Shown: positions 2,985 to 21,639 of the stretch, piece by piece
Numbering within the stretch: the stretch's first letter is position 1
How the letters are laid out: each line of letters starts with the position of its first letter
IMG/VR virus record: IMGVR_UViG_3300034066_000231
Coordinates: 1 to 24,488 of that record
Origin: a virus
DNA length: 24,488 nucleotides
Reading direction: 5' to 3' (one strand)
Program-made: the position numbers and the translations under genes
Notes under the pieces: generated by a model
What the model saw: only the letters and a program-made list of their open reading frames with translations
Database searches by the model: none
Told to the model about the DNA's origin: nothing

Positions 2985-3008
2985 AAAAAAGAGGGTCCTA
3001 AGACCCTC
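2984..3008 (-). terminator. Rho-independent terminator after nrdB
   Basis: A perfect 7-bp stem (GAGGGTC with GACCCTC, 2991-2997 and 3002-3008) with a 4-base loop is followed on the minus strand by seven T. It starts four bases after the nrdB stop codon and closes the primase-nrdA-nrdB transcript. Confidence 0.88.
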
Positions 3009-3011
3009 TAC

Positions 3012-4190
3012 TCAAAGTTTAAATCCAGCAAAACTATCTTTCTTCAAGTCTTGTTTGATGCCACCAACCACATAACTTTCAACTTCAGTTTCCTGGGGAG
3101 CAACTTGTAGACCTTTTGAGGAGATCCAGTGTTCTGTCCAGGGGAGAGGATTATTTTTGGCAGGGATATCATAGATAGGTTTAATTCCAATAGATTTCAT
3201 ACGACGATTAGCAATCCACTCAACATAATTATTGAGAAGTTTATCATTCAGACCAATCATAGAACCATCCTTAAACAGATACTGTGCCCATGATTTTTCT
3301 TGATCTACACAAGTTTTAAATGCATTAACTACCCAATCATGTTCTTCTTTAGCAATTTGTTGCATTTCTGGATCATCCCCTTCACTCCACTTATTGAGGA
3401 TGTTTTGAGTAATAACAAGGTGCTGGTTTTCATCTCTGGCGATAAGAGAGATAATTTTAGCGGATCCTTCCATAAGCTTGAGTTCACCAAATGCAAACGA
3501 GCAAGCGAACGAGACATAAAACCTGATACCTTCGAGAATGTTGACATTGGCAATTGCTCTATAAAGTTTTCTTTTAAGTTCAATTCTTTCCTCCCTAGCA
3601 TACCCTGCACCTTCCTGTGCAAAGATCCAATCATTGGATGTCCCATATAGTTGAGCAGAATTGATGAAGTCATCATATGCTCCTGTAACAGAAGATGCTC
3701 TTTCTAAAATCCTTTCATTAGTGAGGATAGTATCAAATACTTCAGAAGGATCTGAGTATACATTTTTGATAATGTAAGTATAGGATCTGGAGTGAATCAT
3801 CTCCATAAATTCCCAAACAGTCATACATGCTTCCAGTTCAGGAAGAGAACAGTATGGAATAAATGCCATACCAGGACCTCTTCCCTGAACAGAATCAAGA
3901 AGAATTTGATACTTTAAGTTAGATGTGAAGATGTGCTTTTGTTCTGGTCTTAATGTTTGATAGTCTGCTCTATCCTTTTGGAGGGAGACCTCCTCAGGTC
4001 TCCAGAAGTATCCAAGTTGCTGTTGAGTGAGTTTATCAAAGATAGGATACTTGTATTGATCATATCTTTGAACTCCAAGGGGATTTCCAAAAAACATTGG
4101 TTGCTTTTTGGAATCTACTTGTGATGTGTTGAATACTGTCATTCCTTCTATTGTGGGGTCAGAGTTAACTCTAAATTTTGCAACTGTCAC
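3012..4190 (-). CDS. nrdB: Class Ia ribonucleotide reductase, beta subunit
   Basis: This 392-residue protein is the small subunit of aerobic ribonucleotide reductase, which holds the di-iron centre and tyrosyl radical needed to turn ribonucleotides into deoxyribonucleotides. All expected ligands are visible: Asp99, Glu130, His133, Glu220, Glu254 and His257. Radical Tyr137 sits in IHSRSYTYII. These correspond to E. coli D84, E115, H118, E204, E238, H241 and Y122. The C-terminal tail SFAGFKL resembles the peptide that docks into the alpha subunit. The start is GTG (4188-4190) behind GAGGA. It overlaps nrdA by 20 bases, and a terminator follows the stop. The phage thus boosts dNTP supply for its own replication. 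Confidence 0.97.
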   Translation of the reverse strand: MTVAKFRVNSDPTIEGMTVFNTSQVDSKKQPMFFGNPLGVQRYDQYKYPIFDKLTQQQLGYFWRPEEVSLQKDRADYQTLRPEQKHIFTSNLKYQILLDSVQGRGPGMAFIPYCSLPELEACMTVWEFMEMIHSRSYTYIIKNVYSDPSEVFDTILTNERILERASSVTGAYDDFINSAQLYGTSNDWIFAQEGAGYAREERIELKRKLYRAIANVNILEGIRFYVSFACSFAFGELKLMEGSAKIISLIARDENQHLVITQNILNKWSEGDDPEMQQIAKEEHDWVVNAFKTCVDQEKSWAQYLFKDGSMIGLNDKLLNNYVEWIANRRMKSIGIKPIYDIPAKNNPLPWTEHWISSKGLQVAPQETEVESYVVGGIKQDLKKDSFAGFKL

Positions 4191-8456: not shown

Positions 8457-9218
8457 TTATTTTGCTGTTGGATAGAGGATGCCATCAGTACCAGTTTGGA
8501 TACCAGACATAGCAACCAGAACCTCACTCTTCACTCTCAGATTTCCATGCATATCAGTGTAAGTGGTAACACCTACCCAACCAGCATGAGTATATCCTCT
8601 ATATGCTGCAGGAGGATTGGTAGTTGTAGAAATACCATAGACCTGCTTATCATAACCATCAACAGATCTCTTAAAGGTAAGAGTGGCACCTGTGGCAATA
8701 CCTGCAGAAATAGTTGATCCTAAGGTAATTGTAGATCCACCAATGGTAGAAATTACAATATTGTTTGAATTATTAACCAAGAAATCACCAACAATAACTC
8801 CAGTTGGAGCAATTACTGGAATGATATTGGTTCCTACTCCAGCATTTGTAGTTGCAGTTCCTGTGACTGGTAAAGTTACTATGGTTTCATTTGCATCATT
8901 TGCATTGCTATAAGTGCTATCAAGAACTGTGTACTTAGGAAGTTCACTGACATAAAAACTAGTTGCAGCAATTGCTGCTCCACTTAATCCTGCAGTAGAA
9001 CCAATGGTGCATTGAGTTGTGCTTGCAATGCCAACAATTACAGCATCACCAAAATAAGTTCCACCAGAACCCCTAATACCAAATCTAATCACATCTCCTG
9101 TGGCAGCAGCCCCAACTTGCCCAAAGGTAGTACCAGATCCAGTAACAACTAAGGTTGAATAGTTCAGCGATACTGTTCCACCTGAACCCTTATTGTCGTT
9201 ATTTCCCCAGAGTGCCAT
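8457..9218 (-). CDS. Putative virion structural protein
   Basis: This 253-residue protein is rich in Gly, Thr, Ser and Ala with many short beta-like segments (TGSGTTFGQVGAAATGDVI, VTLPVTGTATT) and almost no charge, as in exposed beta-structured virion proteins. The N-terminus MALWGNND and a C-terminal block (HAGWVGVTTYTD... LVAMSGIQTGTDGILYPT) resemble cyanomyovirus structural proteins I have seen. It has an exact late promoter 37 bases upstream (9255-9262), as expected for a capsid or tail component. The precise location (head decoration, neck or tail) cannot be decided here. Confidence 0.8.
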   Translation of the reverse strand: MALWGNNDNKGSGGTVSLNYSTLVVTGSGTTFGQVGAAATGDVIRFGIRGSGGTYFGDAVIVGIASTTQCTIGSTAGLSGAAIAATSFYVSELPKYTVLDSTYSNANDANETIVTLPVTGTATTNAGVGTNIIPVIAPTGVIVGDFLVNNSNNIVISTIGGSTITLGSTISAGIATGATLTFKRSVDGYDKQVYGISTTTNPPAAYRGYTHAGWVGVTTYTDMHGNLRVKSEVLVAMSGIQTGTDGILYPTAK

Positions 9219-9254
9219 TCTTTTTACCTAAATTAATTTTTTTTCTTCTTAAGT

Positions 9255-9262
9255 TATTTATA
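9255..9262 (-). promoter_or_regulatory. T4-type late promoter (TATAAATA)
   Basis: Exact TATAAATA on the minus strand, 37 bases before the start of the virion protein gene, again running directly out of the T-run of the upstream terminator. Confidence 0.82.
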
Positions 9263-9286
9263 AAAAAAGGGGAATTGAAATTCCCC
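9262..9286 (-). terminator. Rho-independent terminator
   Basis: The arms GGGGAA and TTCCCC (9269-9274, 9281-9286) enclose a 6-base loop and are followed on the minus strand by seven T. It lies 25 bases after the stop of the 57-residue gene. Confidence 0.85.
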
Positions 9287-9311
9287 AGTCAACTATTAAA
9301 TTATACTAGAT

Positions 9312-9485
9312 TCAAACACACTCTTTAAGAAGTGCCTCTCTTACCATTTTAGCAATCACATTGTCAATATCATTATCTGTAGTGGTTACATATCTATCAA
9401 TGAGGTCACACACAAGTCTTTTGACTTGACATGAATTCATGGCACTAATAAGGATTGGTCTTGCGAGTGATACTAAAGCAGACAT
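9312..9485 (-). CDS. Small hypothetical protein (57 aa)
   Basis: This 57-residue protein (MSALVSLARPILISAMNSCQ...) has an amphipathic, helix-prone first half and an acidic middle (TTTDNDIDNV). No family recognised. The ATG at 9483-9485 has a strong Shine-Dalgarno (GGAGA) at good spacing, so the longer TTG start at 9497 is not needed. A late-type motif AATAAATA (9511-9518) precedes it and a terminator follows, so it could be a short unit of its own. Confidence 0.65.
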   Translation of the reverse strand: MSALVSLARPILISAMNSCQVKRLVCDLIDRYVTTTDNDIDNVIAKMVREALLKECV

Positions 9486-9510
9486 GATGGTCTCCAAATG
9501 AACCTAATAC

Positions 9511-9518
9511 TATTTATT
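9511..9518 (-). promoter_or_regulatory. Late-type promoter motif (AATAAATA)
   Basis: Fits NATAAATA on the minus strand, 26 bases upstream of the ATG of the 57-residue gene. It overlaps the stop codon of the upstream gene. Because the region is AT-rich, a chance match is possible. Confidence 0.45.
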
Positions 9519-10617
9519 TTTTAAGGCTCTTCAGAACATCTCCTGCTTTTTTAGCAAGAGTATCTTGCTTCTGTCTTCTAGATAATTGTCTATTTGCTTC
9601 TGGAGCAGGTGCCTTTGCAGCAGGAGATTCAGATCCCATTGGTTTTGAAGATCTTCTTGTAGATCCTCCACCTTTCACTTGTCTCAGAACTTTTTCTGCT
9701 TCTTGCTCAAGTCTTTCTGCTCTCTTTTGCTTCATCTCTGCTGCTTTCTTTTGAGCAGGACTTAATTCAGTTGATTTTCTTTCTGATGCAGGTCTCAGTT
9801 TTGATTTCTTAGGATCAAAAACACCCTCAGAAAGATCATATCTATTATCAAGATAATTCAGGACTGCTTCTTCTGATGCTGGATTTAACTTTGCAGATGC
9901 TCTTGCCTTAGCAACCTGAAGATCTGAGAGTTCCTTTCTAACTTGTGCTTGTGCTGCTCTTCTTTTTGCTGCTTGAAGAGGATCTGCTCCTGCAGTTTTT
10001 GTATCTTGAAGATCTCCTCTTGGAGCAAGCATTGTAGTATCTGCTTCTTCTAGTTCTGCAGACTCATAAATGTCTACGACTTCTTGCCAAGTAAACTGTG
10101 AAAGGTCATATCCTTCATCTAAAAGAACACCAACCCATTCTTCAACTTCTTCTGGAATAGAAGGTTTAGTATCAATCTTATTTTTGATATTTTTTCTTAC
10201 ATCAATTCTTTCATTCTTATCTGTTTTTGTAAAGAGATCTCTCTCTTCCTTATTAAGTTTTGCAAGATCTGCTGCACCTGCTGCTTTTCTTTCTTTACTT
10301 TGCCACTTTCCACCAAATGATGTTGGAGGTCCACTGCGATCCAATCCACGCATATCCCCATACTTTTGCTTTGGACCTTCACCAGGCTCGTCATGCTCTC
10401 TTGCTTCATCAACTTCTTCTACTTCTTCTTCTACCTTTGCTTTCTTCTTTTTAAACTTGCTAGATACTTCTCCTTTCTCATATCCAATACCATCACCATC
10501 ATCATCCCACCAACGCTTTGGTTTTTCCTTCTTTTCTTCAGTTACAGCATAAGGATCTGCCATTTCAAAAAATGGCTCTCTAATTTCTTTATAAAGATCT
10601 GCCCAAATGTTAGTCAT
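9514..10617 (-). CDS. Charged protein with Excalibur-like calcium loop; putative internal head protein
   Basis: This 367-residue, highly charged and low-complexity protein is of the same general kind as the one at 1800-2954. Near the N-terminus it has RWWDDDGDGIGYEKGE (35-50). The core DxDxDGxxxE (38-47) is the acidic loop pattern of Excalibur/EF-hand-like calcium sites, here without the cysteines of true Excalibur domains. A VDEA site (69-72) fits the cleavage pattern of a gp21-type prohead protease. The C-terminal third is Lys/Arg/Ala-rich and could contact DNA. It lies between a CTS-bearing transferase and virion genes, so a head-internal role is inferred. The ATG at 10615-10617 has only a weak purine stretch upstream. 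Confidence 0.72.
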   Translation of the reverse strand: MTNIWADLYKEIREPFFEMADPYAVTEEKKEKPKRWWDDDGDGIGYEKGEVSSKFKKKKAKVEEEVEEVDEAREHDEPGEGPKQKYGDMRGLDRSGPPTSFGGKWQSKERKAAGAADLAKLNKEERDLFTKTDKNERIDVRKNIKNKIDTKPSIPEEVEEWVGVLLDEGYDLSQFTWQEVVDIYESAELEEADTTMLAPRGDLQDTKTAGADPLQAAKRRAAQAQVRKELSDLQVAKARASAKLNPASEEAVLNYLDNRYDLSEGVFDPKKSKLRPASERKSTELSPAQKKAAEMKQKRAERLEQEAEKVLRQVKGGGSTRRSSKPMGSESPAAKAPAPEANRQLSRRQKQDTLAKKAGDVLKSLKK

Positions 10618-10641
10618 CTTTTTGCTAATTCTTTTTTCTAT

Positions 10642-11751
10642 TTAGTCAGGATGGACTTCTGATACATCCTTGATCCAAGATTTAAACATAAATCCATCCT
10701 CAGTTACGCAGATCAAATGGTTTGCACCAGACCTAATAATTTCACCTCTAAGTCCTGTTGTAGAACTTTCTACAATAGTTCCAACTTTGAATAAATTACC
10801 AAAGATATAATTTTCTCTTAATCCTTTCCAATCTAACTCTGGAGATATTAACCAAGTCTCTTTAACTTCTAATGATCCTCCAAGTTCATCAAATAATTTT
10901 TTAGATCCTTTAAATGATGTTGGCATCATCTTCTTAAAGGATTCAAAGTCACCAGCAGATGCTGCTTTTCTTGCTGCTGCAGAAGATTCATCAGGATCCT
11001 TTGGTCCTGCAGAAACTACATTAATAGAATTAAATTCATATGCAGTTCCATTTTGCTTTAATGATAAACTGTCAATTTCAGCAACTCTTTCTGCTCCAAC
11101 TACAATATTAACTGCAGTGTATCCTTCTTGATTTAAGAATGCAAGAACATCAAAGATAGTTTTAAAATCTTCACTATCAATAATCCTATCTGCATACTGA
11201 GGAAACATTTCCTTCATATACTCAATTTTAATATCAGGAGGAAGTGGATTCTTCTTTCCATCTTGTGTTCTACTTGGGAAGACATAGAAATTACCCCCTG
11301 AAGATGCTTGCTTTAAAGCATTCAAAAGATTCAAATGTCCTTTTGTTGGAGGATTAAATTTACCAAAAGCAACAGTTACAACTTCTCCCCTAACGTCTTG
11401 TCTAGGTTGCTGCCCTCCTTTTCTAGAAGTTCCTGTAGGTTCTGCTTTTTTACTCTTTACTTCAGTAGGTTGAGTTGGTTTAGATCCTAATCTTTTTGGA
11501 GCAGCTTTAAATTTCTTAGATTTTCTTTTTTTAATTTCTGCTGGAGTGTACCCTACCTCATCATCTCCACCATCTTTTTTCTTTTCTTTTCCCTTTATAA
11601 ACTCAAGTTTTCCCTTGACTGTTCTGGCTTGCTTTGTGCCTTCTCTATCTATCCAATATCCGTGACCATCTCCAACATACCCAAGTTTCTTTGCTTGCTT
11701 TGCAGCTTGGGATGTTCTTGCTTCTGTTAAAAAATCTAAGAATCTTTTCAT
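10642..11751 (-). CDS. Nucleotidyltransferase (NMN/cytidylyl-transferase fold) with capsid-targeting-like N-terminus
   Basis: Residues about 124-280 of this 369-residue protein form an HxGH-type nucleotidyltransferase: VAFGKFNPPTKGHLNLL (TKGH at 136-139), VVGAERV (218-224) and SSAAAR (256-261) in place of the family's ISSTxxR. This layout is that of NadM/NadR-like adenylyltransferases. The substrate is not clear from sequence; NMN is possible. The first residues MKRFLDFLTEA resemble the T4 internal-protein capsid targeting sequence MKTYQEFIAEA, with a gp21-like site after Glu10 (LTE/A). Residues about 40-120 are a basic, low-complexity linker. The start codon overlaps the stop of the preceding ORF (ATGA). 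Confidence 0.85.
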   Translation of the reverse strand: MKRFLDFLTEARTSQAAKQAKKLGYVGDGHGYWIDREGTKQARTVKGKLEFIKGKEKKKDGGDDEVGYTPAEIKKRKSKKFKAAPKRLGSKPTQPTEVKSKKAEPTGTSRKGGQQPRQDVRGEVVTVAFGKFNPPTKGHLNLLNALKQASSGGNFYVFPSRTQDGKKNPLPPDIKIEYMKEMFPQYADRIIDSEDFKTIFDVLAFLNQEGYTAVNIVVGAERVAEIDSLSLKQNGTAYEFNSINVVSAGPKDPDESSAAARKAASAGDFESFKKMMPTSFKGSKKLFDELGGSLEVKETWLISPELDWKGLRENYIFGNLFKVGTIVESSTTGLRGEIIRSGANHLICVTEDGFMFKSWIKDVSEVHPD

Positions 11752-17401: not shown

Positions 17402-19897
17402 TTAAGCAAAAAGTGATTCTAATGTGTTTGTTTTTTCAATGCCCCATCCAATACATTGAAGAATAGTTTTCAAAGGATCAATAAAACCTTTCTCAAACTG
17501 AAGTTCATAATCAACATATTTAATTAGATTTAATTCCTTTGGGAACTGCTGTACAAATGATAGCACATTTTCTCTAATTGGGTTGGGATTCTTTAAATAA
17601 CAAAATTTAATTTTTTCCCCATTATTGATAATGGGATATTTATTATTTAAATTCTTCTCTTTAGTATAGTGGTTATACAACAAACATCCCCTGATATGAA
17701 TGGGACATTTCTTTTCATAAATTGAACTGTAGGATCTGTATTTGTTAATGTTGTTTGCTGTTCTTGGAAAAGAAATTTCCTCTGGAGGCAAAGAATAGAA
17801 AGTTTTTCTAGACTTATCAACATACTCAATAAGATCATCTTCAGTTTTTGTCATAATCAATTTGAGAGCATCTTTAATCATCTGCCTACAAGGTGCTGGA
17901 GTAGATGATTTGACTGCCTCAATTCCCATAATCTTCAGTTTTGGTTCAGAGTATCTGACTCCTTCAGAGTCCCACACATTTAGAATGTATCTTTTCTTAG
18001 CAGTCCAAATTCCACGATCAGCAATATTTTCTCGCTTCATTTGCATCTTCTGCTCATATGCATTCACATACTCAGCCAGTTCTTTGTAAGAATCTTCAAT
18101 ATAAGGCTCAAGTTCCATTTTACAGATCTTATCAAGGAACCCAACAACTTTCTCATTAGTTTTCTCTCTGCCTTTGTATACACATTCAACCAAAGGACCC
18201 ATATTAAGGTAAATAGAATCAGTATCTGAAGCAATAACATAATCTACACCATCAGTTTTTAGAATTTTATTTAAGTAAGTATTCATTTTGTTTTCAATCC
18301 ATCTGATAGATACTTGACCAGATAGAGTAACTGCTTCTGCATTCTCAATCCTAAAATACCTAAAGTATTCATTTCCTACAGCACCATAGGCAGAATTAAG
18401 TTGAATCTTTCTTGCCAATTGAATGTTATTACAACGAGCAATTTCCTTTTCTAGATCTTTTGTTGGTGTTTTTTCATACTCCTGTTTTGCAGCAAGCATT
18501 TTCTTTTTATAGATTGTCCTCTCACTATAGATTTTATCCATTAGTTCTGGAAGGAATCCACGAACATCTTTCCTAAACATTGCACCATTGGCACAAACAG
18601 AGTACTGTTTGTAGTCATCAAAATCTACAGACTTGTTCAGAATTTTGTCCACAGAAATACTTGGATGCTTAGCATCCAGAAGAGTTTCTGGAGAAATGTT
18701 ATACATCATAATCAGGTGTGGATACAGACTATTAAGGTCAAAACTCACAACCCAATCATACTTTCCAGGAACTGGTTCCTTTACATAAGCACCAGCATAC
18801 TTAGAATCTTTTTTAGTATCCTTCTTAAATGGAATAACAATATCTTTTTCTTTCAGATAATTGTAGATGATAGAATCCCACATTCTTACCTGATAAAACA
18901 CATCATTGAAATTGCACTTAGCATCATATGCCATAGTAATTGCAAGTTCAATTAGACGCATTTTATCCTCAAGTCTATCTACAAGTTCCACGTCCTTGAT
19001 GTTATATTCTACAAACTTTTGCCAGTTTTTAGTATAGAACTCCTTAAAGGTATCATACTCTGAGTGGTCCAATTTATTCTGACCAAGTTCAACAAAAGCA
19101 ATATGATCAAGTCTATATGATTCTTGATTGGTATAAGTAAACTTTTTATACAACTCAAGATAATCTAGAACAGTGGTTCCTGCAATATCATATCTGATAT
19201 GAGGTCTGCCATTAACAATGATTTCATTCTCAGTAACAATTCCCCAAGTAGAAAGTTGCTTGGCAATCTTTTCGCCAAGAACCCTAGATATTCTCCTATA
19301 GAGATAAGGAATATCATAATATTCACAGTTCCATCCAGTAATTACCTCTGGACAATTCTGCTCCCAATAAAACATAAATCTATCCAGTAGATCATATTCA
19401 CTGTTGCAGGAAATATAATTTACATTAGGATTAGTATTTACAAAAGGTTTGCTTCCCCAAGTAATAATTTTTTTAGTGGAATAATCCTGGATGGATATAG
19501 TTAATACTTCCTCCTGGACTGATTCCACATCTGGGAATCCTTGTTCTGATGCAACCTCAATGTCAATGGTAATTAGTTTGATCTTTGAAATATCAAATCT
19601 AATAGATTCATCCTTATAGTTTTCTGAAATATATTGATTGATATACCTAGTATTACCATATAGTTTAAAGTTATCAATCTTTTGATACTTATCAATGAAC
19701 TCTCTAGTTTCCCTAATAGTTCCTGGTTTAACTTCCTCTACATATTTTCCCTCAAGAGTTTTAAATTTAGTTTTTTTATTACTAGTTACATATAAAGTTG
19801 GAAAGAACATTTCTCTATTCTTGAAATGTTCCCCATTATTAAACCCTCTGGAAAGTATTTCATTTCCAACAAGAACTACATTGGTATAAAAGTTCAT
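17402..19897 (-). CDS. 43: Family B DNA polymerase (T4 gp43)
   Basis: This 831-residue replicative polymerase has a 3'-5' exonuclease: Exo I DIE with Asp112 and Glu114 (the same numbers as in T4), Exo II ...CEYYD (Asp195) and Exo III YNIKD (Asp302). The polymerase domain has motif A FDLNSLYP (386-393), motif B KIQLNSAYG (497-505), motif C SDTDS (557-561) and a KKRY motif. The C-terminal NTLESLFA resembles a sliding-clamp binding peptide. It is somewhat shorter than T4 gp43 (898). The start overlaps the stop of the small gene upstream (ATGA). Confidence 0.98.
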   Translation of the reverse strand: MNFYTNVVLVGNEILSRGFNNGEHFKNREMFFPTLYVTSNKKTKFKTLEGKYVEEVKPGTIRETREFIDKYQKIDNFKLYGNTRYINQYISENYKDESIRFDISKIKLITIDIEVASEQGFPDVESVQEEVLTISIQDYSTKKIITWGSKPFVNTNPNVNYISCNSEYDLLDRFMFYWEQNCPEVITGWNCEYYDIPYLYRRISRVLGEKIAKQLSTWGIVTENEIIVNGRPHIRYDIAGTTVLDYLELYKKFTYTNQESYRLDHIAFVELGQNKLDHSEYDTFKEFYTKNWQKFVEYNIKDVELVDRLEDKMRLIELAITMAYDAKCNFNDVFYQVRMWDSIIYNYLKEKDIVIPFKKDTKKDSKYAGAYVKEPVPGKYDWVVSFDLNSLYPHLIMMYNISPETLLDAKHPSISVDKILNKSVDFDDYKQYSVCANGAMFRKDVRGFLPELMDKIYSERTIYKKKMLAAKQEYEKTPTKDLEKEIARCNNIQLARKIQLNSAYGAVGNEYFRYFRIENAEAVTLSGQVSIRWIENKMNTYLNKILKTDGVDYVIASDTDSIYLNMGPLVECVYKGREKTNEKVVGFLDKICKMELEPYIEDSYKELAEYVNAYEQKMQMKRENIADRGIWTAKKRYILNVWDSEGVRYSEPKLKIMGIEAVKSSTPAPCRQMIKDALKLIMTKTEDDLIEYVDKSRKTFYSLPPEEISFPRTANNINKYRSYSSIYEKKCPIHIRGCLLYNHYTKEKNLNNKYPIINNGEKIKFCYLKNPNPIRENVLSFVQQFPKELNLIKYVDYELQFEKGFIDPLKTILQCIGWGIEKTNTLESLFA

Positions 19898-20160
19898 TTA
19901 ATAGTTTTCAAGTAAAGTTCAATTTGATCTGGTTTTGGATCTACAATAGTAAAGATTGAGTCAGAATGAATCTTGAGTTCTCTCTGATCAGTGAATACAG
20001 GCCATTTTTTCATATCATAATGATTGGCATCTGAAACCAACATCTGAACAGGATTTACCAATTTACAATCAGGTTCTCCCAAGTCTGCCCCTGGAACTTC
20101 ATGTATTTCTGTAATCAGAATAGCATCATTCTTCAGAATCAGAATTTTTAGGTTTTGCAT
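19894..20160 (-). CDS. Small beta-rich (Sm-like?) protein, second of a tandem pair
   Basis: This 88-residue, beta-strand-rich protein begins LKILILKNDAILITEIHEV and ends with a helix (PDQIELYLKTI). It aligns by eye with the gene upstream: VKLLILKSLEDVIADVTE, a central NPV motif in both (LVNPVQ; LSNPVV), and a final D(P)..D..xxYLxxx. The pattern suggests an Sm/Lsm-like small barrel, but this is not proven. A good Shine-Dalgarno (GGAG) precedes the ATG at 20158-20160. It overlaps the polymerase start by 4 bases and its partner by 35. Confidence 0.72.
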   Translation of the reverse strand: MQNLKILILKNDAILITEIHEVPGADLGEPDCKLVNPVQMLVSDANHYDMKKWPVFTDQRELKIHSDSIFTIVDPKPDQIELYLKTIK

Positions 20161-20404
20161 TTACATTCTCCAAATAAGAATCAACAACTTCATCAATAGG
20201 ATCTAAACAAGCAACTACCCAATCAGTAGGAATTTTAATGGTAGTTTCTTTAGAAAGGGGAGCATATGGATAGAAAGAAAGTTTGTCTCCATCCAATCTA
20301 GTCACTACTGGATTGGATAGTGTGTAATATTTACCAGTTATATCTTCAGTAACATCAGCAATGACGTCTTCCAAAGATTTTAGAATTAAAAGTTTAACTG
20401 CCAT
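20126..20404 (-). CDS. Small beta-rich (Sm-like?) protein, first of a tandem pair
   Basis: This 92-residue protein starts AVKLLILKSLEDVIADVTED, then YYTLSNPVVTRLDGD, LSFYPYAPLS and IPTDWVVACLDP, and ends in an acidic tail. Alternating hydrophobic strands and the Gly/Asn-Pro turns look like an Sm-like barrel. Proteins of this kind are frequent near DNA polymerase in cyanophages, where they remain hypothetical. GGAAAA precedes the ATG at 20402-20404. It overlaps the upstream transferase by 11 bases and its paralogue by 35 bases. RNA binding is a reasonable guess only. Confidence 0.72.
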   Translation of the reverse strand: MAVKLLILKSLEDVIADVTEDITGKYYTLSNPVVTRLDGDKLSFYPYAPLSKETTIKIPTDWVVACLDPIDEVVDSYLENVNAKPKNSDSEE

Positions 20405-21122
20405 AATTTTCCAAAGTAAGAGTTTTATCTTGAAGTTTCAGAATATGATCTGCAAGTTTATCTATGTAACCTTTGTTTCTAAGTTCTTTAAAAACAAGAT
20501 TCTCAAAGGAAAATTCTCCTCCCTTATCTAAACCTGCATTTCTCATATCTCTGAGTTTAGATAGAAGATTTTTTAAAACATCTTCATCAGTTGCGCTAAC
20601 AACTGTCCTATCTATTTTCCTCATCATATCACGAACTTTGTCATTCAGCAAGTCCCTATCCAGTTCTCCAGTGAACTTACCAGGAAGCATTAACCATTTT
20701 TTATATTTTATGGAATAAACTCCTTGATTTTTTCTTCTCTTTTTGCCAATATCTTCTACATAAGGTTCAATATCATGTCCATAAATTTTGGCATTATGAG
20801 TTAACTTCCACAGTTGTTTCTTATCCTCATACATATCAGATGCTAAATCTGGACATTCAGTTGCTTTCTCCAAATCAACAACTATATGCAAATCCAAATC
20901 TGAATATCTAGTATAATTATATCCAGCATTTCCTCCCAATAATAAAATATCCTGAACTGATGACTTCTTTAATCCCACAAATTCAGTCCAAGCATCTGCT
21001 ACTTTCTTTAGATGCTTTGCTACTTCAGGTTTCAATTTATCATTGACCCAAAATTTAGGATTAAGTTGTGTATTAACTTTAAAAGATATTGATTCCTCAA
21101 GGAATTGATTATATGTTTTCAT
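20394..21122 (-). CDS. Pol beta-superfamily nucleotidyltransferase with T4-type capsid targeting N-terminus
   Basis: The catalytic core of this 242-residue protein reads LLLGGNAGYNYTRYSDLDLHIVVD (60-83): a GG...SDLD signature with metal ligands Asp75 and Asp77. A third carboxylate is likely at HDIEPYVED (116-124). This is the fold of minimal nucleotidyltransferases that add nucleotides to RNA, proteins or small molecules; the substrate is unknown. The first residues MKTYNQFLEES match the T4 internal-protein capsid targeting sequence MKTYQEFIAEA at six of eleven positions, with conservative changes elsewhere and a gp21-like LEE/S site after residue 10. A late promoter (21137-21144) sits 15 bases upstream of the ATG, in keeping with packaging in the virion. 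Confidence 0.88.
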   Translation of the reverse strand: MKTYNQFLEESISFKVNTQLNPKFWVNDKLKPEVAKHLKKVADAWTEFVGLKKSSVQDILLLGGNAGYNYTRYSDLDLHIVVDLEKATECPDLASDMYEDKKQLWKLTHNAKIYGHDIEPYVEDIGKKRRKNQGVYSIKYKKWLMLPGKFTGELDRDLLNDKVRDMMRKIDRTVVSATDEDVLKNLLSKLRDMRNAGLDKGGEFSFENLVFKELRNKGYIDKLADHILKLQDKTLTLENYGS

Positions 21123-21136
21123 TAACCCTTTTTAGG

Positions 21137-21144
21137 TATTTATA
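21137..21144 (-). promoter_or_regulatory. T4-type late promoter (TATAAATA)
   Basis: Exact TATAAATA on the minus strand just before the capsid-targeted nucleotidyltransferase, continuing out of the T-run of the hsp20 terminator. Confidence 0.82.
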
Positions 21145-21180
21145 AAAAAGGGGGTTGGATGGTCTTAGTCATCCTCCCCC
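21144..21180 (-). terminator. Rho-independent terminator after hsp20
   Basis: A two-part stem, GGGGG/CCCCC (21150-21154, 21176-21180) and GGATG/CATCC (21157-21161, 21170-21174), has a small internal loop between the parts and an 8-base apical loop. On the minus strand it is followed by six T. Confidence 0.87.
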
Positions 21181-21204
21181 TGCGCCGACGATATTCAAAT
21201 CTAT

Positions 21205-21639
21205 TTATAGATAATCTTTACGTGCATGATGCTCTGGAACAATCTTCCCTAATCGAATGACAAGTAATCCATCTTCAAAGGTGACTTCTCTGACTTCTGT
21301 GTCGTCTGAGAGTGTCCATGCTCTCGTGAAACTTCTGCTAGCCACTCCCTTGTGGATAAACGTCCTGTCCGATTCAGTATCTGATTTTTTTCCTTCGACA
21401 AAAAGTTTTCCATACTCTGTGAAGACATGAACCTCCTCCTTCTTAAATCCTGCAAGGGCAATCTCTAAACGAGATTCCACATTATTTACCTGAACTAGAT
21501 TATATGGAGGATAATTTGTTGTAGTTTCATGAAGGTTAAACAGACGATCAAAATATTCATCCATTCCAATACTATTGCGTGTAATCTTGTCCAGCAAAGT
21601 AGGCAAATCCGAAACAGTATATCTTGTGAGATTAGACAT
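21205..21639 (-). CDS. hsp20: Small heat shock protein (Hsp20/alpha-crystallin family)
   Basis: This 144-residue ATP-independent chaperone has an IbpA-like alpha-crystallin domain (about 48-135). It begins NNVESRLEIALAGFKKEEV and includes GKLFVEGKK, FIHKGVASRSFTRAWTLSDDTEV and the final strand DGLLVIRLGKIVPE, the last holding the usual I-x-V/L-type anchoring residues. Such genes are widespread in T4-like cyanophages and may keep phage or host proteins folded during infection. GGAG precedes the ATG at 21637-21639, a TATAAT box lies at 21700-21705, and a terminator follows, so it looks monocistronic. Confidence 0.95.
   Translation of the reverse strand: MSNLTRYTVSDLPTLLDKITRNSIGMDEYFDRLFNLHETTTNYPPYNLVQVNNVESRLEIALAGFKKEEVHVFTEYGKLFVEGKKSDTESDRTFIHKGVASRSFTRAWTLSDDTEVREVTFEDGLLVIRLGKIVPEHHARKDYL

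Follow-up and report, generated by a model that had tools for sequence, protein, structure and literature searches.

Why would a T4-like cyanophage carry, among its replication genes, a nucleotidyltransferase (NTase) gene that is preceded by a late promoter motif and begins like the T4 proteins that are targeted to the capsid? The question is raised by the 24,488-base fragment of such a phage that was analyzed here (the whole stretch is called the window below), a virus record that comes closest, among named records, to Synechococcus phages DSL-LC03 and S-SRM01. The original prediction was that the enzyme is packaged in the head and injected with the genome, where it would modify a host target at once. 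Our analysis makes it probable, as a whole, that the NTase is made late, loaded through a capsid-targeting sequence (CTS), cleaved and ejected as a host-modifying enzyme, and we rate it as a variant of the T4 strategy of internal, ejected head proteins.

The gene and its late promoter motif

The NTase gene (242 amino acids) occupies positions 20394..21122 on the minus strand; the interval first assigned to it, 20394-21144, extends beyond the end of the open reading frame at 21122, and the remainder includes the promoter. With names assigned by comparison with relatives, the order on the coding strand is gp44-like, gp62-like, regA, hsp20, NTase, two DUF6561 genes and DNA polymerase. The paired DUF6561 genes lie at 19894-20160 and 20126-20404 (minus strand), and genes of virion type are found at about 8457-11751. 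Replication genes do adjoin the NTase, as the description of an early cluster had it, but the cluster is not purely early, since five other open reading frames in the window have [AC]TAAATA no more than 70 nt upstream. Late-type genes are interspersed here, and the late motif at the NTase is not exceptional within the cluster. All 16 copies of [AC]TAAATA in the window are on the coding strand.

The motif itself, which is of the T4 late-promoter type, is an exact TATAAATA at 21137..21144 on the minus strand, as originally reported, although its distance from the ATG is 14 bases rather than 15. It lies inside the T-tract of a hairpin after hsp20, and folding shows this hairpin to be GC-rich, followed by T6 and terminator-like (21149..21181, minus strand), although a terminator consensus scan did not list it. 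At the end of hsp20, about 65 nt upstream of the first, stands a second TATAAATA (21202..21209, minus strand), and many relatives keep [AC]TAAATA at this position. Across the family, [AC]TAAATA is found within 120 nt upstream of the NTase in 40 of 55 clusters, compared with 48 of 366 other open reading frames at the same loci, and in the cyanophage S-CREM2 it stands upstream of 29 of 52 virion genes compared with 24 of 167 others. The 14 nt in the window is a short spacing by comparison with S-CREM2, where 18-35 nt is usual and a single outlier has 47. A close relative (L055) has CTAAATA in place of TATAAATA, and CTAAATA is the commoner form of the late motif upstream of S-CREM2 virion genes. 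As judged from these sequences, the motif before the NTase gene is probably real.

A solo nucleotidyltransferase of the Pol-beta type

The protein had been described as a minimal Pol beta-type transferase with a GGNAG..SDLD motif, and this assignment was borne out by alignment and structure prediction. The product matches PHROG 36119, a family with no assigned function, at E 1.9e-58; Pfam NTP_transf_2 reaches only E 0.07 against the window NTase, although with a cutoff of E 0.1 it is detected in 43 of 58 relatives, the best of them at 7e-6. The catalytic motif GGNAGYNYTRYSDLD spans residues 63-77 (20892..20936, minus strand) and includes the presumed metal ligands D75 and D77, and the presumed third catalytic carboxylate is E119 of the sequence DIEPY (codon at 20766..20768, minus strand). 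In an alignment of 58 sequences, G63, S74, D75, D77, H79, K101, E119, R194, E203, N208 and K212 are invariant, and the motif positions G63, G64, S74, D75 and D77 are all invariant or nearly so.

An AlphaFold2 model of the protein (pLDDT 87.7, pTM 0.80) has high confidence in the core, which starts at about residue 11, whereas both ends (residues 1-9 and 237-242) fall below pLDDT 50. The predicted mature enzyme, residues 11-242 (20397..21092, minus strand), consists in this model of a Pol-beta fold at about residues 13-148 and a C-terminal helical bundle at residues 149-232. Comparison of residues 13-148 with nucleotidyltransferase folds by Foldseek and VIA-align, a check that had been proposed with the prediction, returned AadA, AAD(9), CdnE, CdnD, MNT and a Sulfolobus nucleotidyltransferase with Z of 5-7, scores that place the fold only and from which subfamily or substrate does not follow. 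The window NTase has the G-[GS]...D-x-D motif and a third acidic residue in a Pol-beta fold, and it shares the catalytic fold and the motif with AadA/ANT(9), MNT antitoxins and CD-NTases but has no specific sequence relationship to them. Likeness to the AMPylase SidM/DrrA was weak (PDB search E 0.31; Pfam in 1 of 58 members). Low-scoring Pfam matches to Rtt102p, TssO and Ku were rejected, and matches of the helical half to HSC20, CorA and an allergen were taken as common helix arrangements.

Searches of NCBIfam yielded no match for the window NTase, PADLOC gave none of weight, and solved structures searched with a profile yielded nothing better than E 0.02. In BFVD, its close structural neighbours are for the most part phage proteins without a name, and each is larger than the window NTase. 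As a plasmid search found no relative and bacterial genome contigs contained only three weak ones, all on MAG contigs, these searches did not lead to a host-derived origin of the NTase.

A leader that resembles a capsid-targeting sequence

The window NTase begins with MKTYNQFLEESISFK, in which the first ten codons (21093..21122, minus strand) encode MKTYNQFLEE, a CTS-like leader with a predicted cut after Glu10 (L8-E9-E10/S11). For packaging of T4 IPIII, the ten N-terminal residues are enough; positions 4 and 7 serve mainly in targeting and positions 8 and 10 in processing, and the T4 protease gp21 cuts after L/I-x-E (PMC9026906). The LEE/S of the window fits this rule, as the original prediction had stated. 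Its comparison with T4 internal proteins starting MKTYQEFIAEA was correct for ipII and ipIII and not for ipI, whose N-terminus in the T4 record is MKTFKEF and whose site of the L/I-x-E type is ITE-19.

Leader conservation was counted over 39 distinct N-termini of close relatives from IMG/VR, an alignment that had been suggested as a check and that came out in favor of the leader. K2, Y/F4 and F7 are kept in all 39 and E10 in 38, and residues 3, 5, 6, 8 and 9 vary freely; aromatic residues at positions 4 and 7 are thus common to the window NTase and its 39 close homologues. Residue 8 is L or I in 17 of the 39, V in 3 and F or Y in 19, so that a strict L/I-x-E is not universal. Almost invariant K2, Y/F4, F7 and E10 within a tail that is predicted to be unstructured are the pattern expected of selection for a CTS, and, on sequence grounds, the match of the conserved positions to the targeting and processing residues of T4 IPIII places the leader beyond chance.

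Homologues that lack the leader had been named in advance as evidence against the prediction, and the outcome was divided: the 39 close homologues keep the layout, but several sublineages, including S-CREM2, are without a classical leader. The leader recurs in distant branches (L171 MKSFSSFITESLTLQYH, L187 MKNFKSFLTEMKISLEYH and L179 MRSYKDFLNELKITLQYH). Other branches have a different N-terminus, YSRVLKHISAADLRE/SLTL, or the shortened leader MKKLISE/LKLTL that is also found in S-CREM2. Sublineages with MKTYRDLKLTL, which has no cleavage site, or with MNLQEFVDKKLTF are without the site or without the layout. Over the family as a whole, [LI]xE stands just before the core in 33 of 53 clusters, compared with a shuffled mean of 5.3 and maximum of 12, an excess that is indicative since related sequences are not independent; any hydrophobic-x-E precedes the core in 46 of 53 clusters.

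A generalized leader pattern, ^M[KRNQ]x[FYL]xx[FL][LIVMFY]xE, was then searched in six frames with GTG and TTG starts allowed. In a 50-kb T4 stretch it matched ipII and ipIII only, and in the window it matched only the NTase and a cytidylyltransferase/NMNAT-like gene (10642..11751, minus strand; leader MKRFLDFLTE/A). In S-CREM2 it matched a SAM hydrolase, a kinase, gp13, gp136 and the cytidylyltransferase, all five of which belong to the virion proteome, compared with none of 167 other proteins (5/52 versus 0/167, Fisher P = 6.5e-4, a value that is indicative as the pattern was generalized after the sequences had been seen). With residues 2-41 shuffled, the chance expectation is 0.03 matches in the 219 S-CREM2 proteins, compared with the 5 observed. 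Matches in S-SCSM1 were the virion protein NMNAT; SSCSM1_30, a small protein that is not flagged as virion and is flanked on both sides by virion genes; and one within the region of a tail-fibre gene.

Several leaders of this type were also observed outside the NTase family. The window cytidylyltransferase, MKRFLDFLTEA, matches the T4 CTS as well as the NTase does, and its homologues are known virion proteins. A small conserved protein with the strict leader MKTFKQFMSES lies between two virion genes in S-SCSM1 (44215-44535, PHROG 1742), and the same protein occurs with the strict leader MKSYKQFISES in G001 (32461-32775); by its sequence it is a candidate for a further head protein. The Cas9-like virion protein gp12 of S-CREM2 (L096 7704-10313, minus strand) has a leader-like RFASFMAEA at residues 18-26, and Cas9 may be among the proteins that this phage packages in its head.

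A homologue in purified virions

The strongest evidence for packaging comes from S-CREM2, in which ORF156 (SCREM2_gp156, 126012-126725) is 40.5% identical to the window NTase. ORF156 was detected in CsCl-purified virions with 6 unique peptides and 15.2% coverage and listed as 'Hypothetical protein' (PMC10665884 Table 3), beside ORF154, the cytidylyltransferase, and ORF155 (PMC10665884). The leader of this homologue is the shortened MKKLISE/L without the K2/F4/F7 layout, and its presence in virions is therefore no direct test of the leader in the window. A prohead protease gene was found in 6 of 6 related contigs checked, two of which carry NTases 96% identical to that of the window. A further homologue of the NTase is g125 of phage S-CRM01. 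Taken together, the virion homologue, the kept targeting and processing residues, the late motif of the family and the disordered leader on a folded domain agree with the predicted packaging of the NTase in the head, which we consider very likely.

Insertions and fusions between promoter and enzyme

In three relatives (L060, L083 and L023), an extra leader-bearing protein is inserted between the same TATAAATA and the NTase, with leaders MKTFKEFLSEA or MKSFREFVVEV/MKSFREFIVEV. In L083 and L023 the inserted protein is fused in frame to the NTase and the internal MK[SR]Y..F leader is kept; the same in-frame fusion is found in L069, whose contig begins partway through the extra protein. These basic proteins (L060 3456-4001, L083 3278-4000, L023 2432-3082 and L069 1-462) are H-rich with nuclease-like stretches and have no clear family match. 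The insertions and fusions resemble a loading site for interchangeable cargo, some of which may be processed from a polyprotein. In L194, a 791-codon stop-to-stop open reading frame over the match at 3001-3726 starts MNPFLTYLTED and contains repeats, with the NTase at its C-terminus and an internal leader-like KPFIRFLSEE just before the NTase core.

Proposed route and alternative explanations

For the window phage, we infer the function of the leader and its cleavage, as well as injection, activity and target, as follows. The NTase would be made late, and MKTYNQFLEE would bind the scaffold core via Y4 and F7 and so load the enzyme into the prohead. A gp21-like prohead protease would then cut after Glu10, a step that the sequence makes probable, and the 232-residue enzyme starting at Ser11 would remain in the mature head. 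As its leader resembles a head-loading tag and a relative is present in purified particles, the NTase probably enters the host together with the viral DNA. In the cyanobacterial cell, it would transfer a nucleotide to a host target (a protein, an RNA or a small molecule) before the phage expresses its own genes. Injection with a host-directed role, for which T4 Alt and the internal proteins serve as the analogy, is the more plausible fate of the packaged enzyme, at a lower confidence than packaging or cleavage.

An alternative explanation is that the NTase is an ordinary intracellular enzyme of nucleotide or RNA metabolism, with a chance-like amphipathic N-terminus in place of a leader and with contamination as the source of the S-CREM2 peptides. 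The adjoining replication genes and the homologues without a leader fit this explanation, and the S-CREM2 authors mention that abundant proteins can persist through CsCl purification (PMC10665884). However, the 52 virion proteins of S-CREM2 include no replication or nucleotide-metabolism enzyme except Cas9, which makes gross contamination unlikely, and neither the conserved late promoter motif nor the position-specific conservation of a disordered tail would be expected of an ordinary enzyme, an explanation that we accordingly regard as improbable. The NTase could instead be packaged but retained, as an internal head protein that acts in the prohead or in maturation or is non-catalytic, with no host-directed effector. 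T4 IPIII has an assembly role, and detection in virions is silent on ejection, but G63, S74, D75, D77 and E119 are invariant over 58 homologues down to 35% identity, and the leader-bearing sets hold other enzymes (the SAM hydrolase, kinase and cytidylyltransferase). In addition, the window NTase has matches in only 45 phage records and the remainder of the window in 426, a difference that fits accessory cargo, and retention is likewise given a low probability.

T4 IPI disarms a restriction enzyme, and in a variant of the preferred reading the injected NTase would serve counter-defence in the manner of an MNT antitoxin, by nucleotidylating a defence RNase of HEPN type in the host. Fold comparison of the catalytic half returned MNT chains among others (Z 5.2-6.0), and MNT antitoxins nucleotidylate HEPN toxins, including those of a pair from the cyanobacterium Aphanizomenon (PMC11586414). 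However, Z of 5-7 fails to separate MNT from aminoglycoside, CD-NTase and poly(A)-polymerase relatives, and the MNT-like role is one possibility that no specific evidence favors, at a probability as small as that of the two preceding explanations. The preferred reading thus stays with a late, CTS-loaded, cleaved and ejected NTase that acts on the host.

Relation to known packaged proteins

Packaged enzymes (Alt, cyanophage NMNAT and kinases) and the CTS are already known. The window NTase shares with T4 IPI, IPII and IPIII the M-K-x-[YF]-x-x-F layout and a cleavage-type site adjoining the mature part, and its family shares with them a late-type promoter motif and, in NTase-bearing relatives, a prohead protease. 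The T4 internal proteins are small, and the literature searched describes none of them as an enzyme, whereas the cargo in the window is a 232-residue NTase of a different family. T4 Alt, a packaged and injected ADP-ribosyltransferase (PMC7411985, PMC5512222), shares the proposed logic of a head-carried enzyme that modifies a host target at once but differs in enzyme superfamily and donor. The cyanophage NMNAT/cytidylyltransferase, a family detected in virions of S-CREM2, S-SCSM1 and S-SM1, has the same leader type in the same phages (MKRFLDFLTEA; MKNFSSFLTEA in S-CREM2), although its fold and chemistry are unlike those of the NTase and its presence in virions has been reported before. Polyvalent proteins with Pol-beta NTase domains share the idea of invasion-phase NTases delivered with DNA, and some NTase relatives are multidomain fusions, but polyvalent proteins combine at least two disparate domains, whereas the window NTase is a leader on one solo NTase unit. 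In a survey of polyvalent proteins, Pol-beta NTases were found only in those of conjugative elements and in none from phages (PMC5512222).

The literature searched, outside which most subscription journals lay, contained no virion-packaged nucleotidyltransferase of the kind in the window and no cyanophage CTS. This agrees with the original statement that no injected nucleotidyltransferase has been described; the S-CREM2 homologue was detected yet unrecognized. In a broader reading, which we put forward tentatively and think somewhat less likely than otherwise, one interchangeable, protease-removed tag would load rotating enzymes into T4-like phages (the NTase, cytidylyltransferase, SAM hydrolase, kinase, possibly Cas9 and nucleases), and the NTase would represent a new enzymatic type of injected effector, for counter-defence or for take-over.

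If the proposed route is correct, an unannotated and widespread family of phage enzymes would be assigned to the head as its location and to the opening minutes of infection as its time of action, and the target of the NTase would thereby become searchable in vitro. The leader together with the late promoter would provide a simple sequence rule for head-packaged effectors in cyanophages, the leader rule in S-CREM2 having picked virion proteins only. The T4 internal-protein strategy would then reach beyond coliphages, into cyanophages of marine and fresh waters, and beyond ADP-ribosyltransferases to other enzymes.
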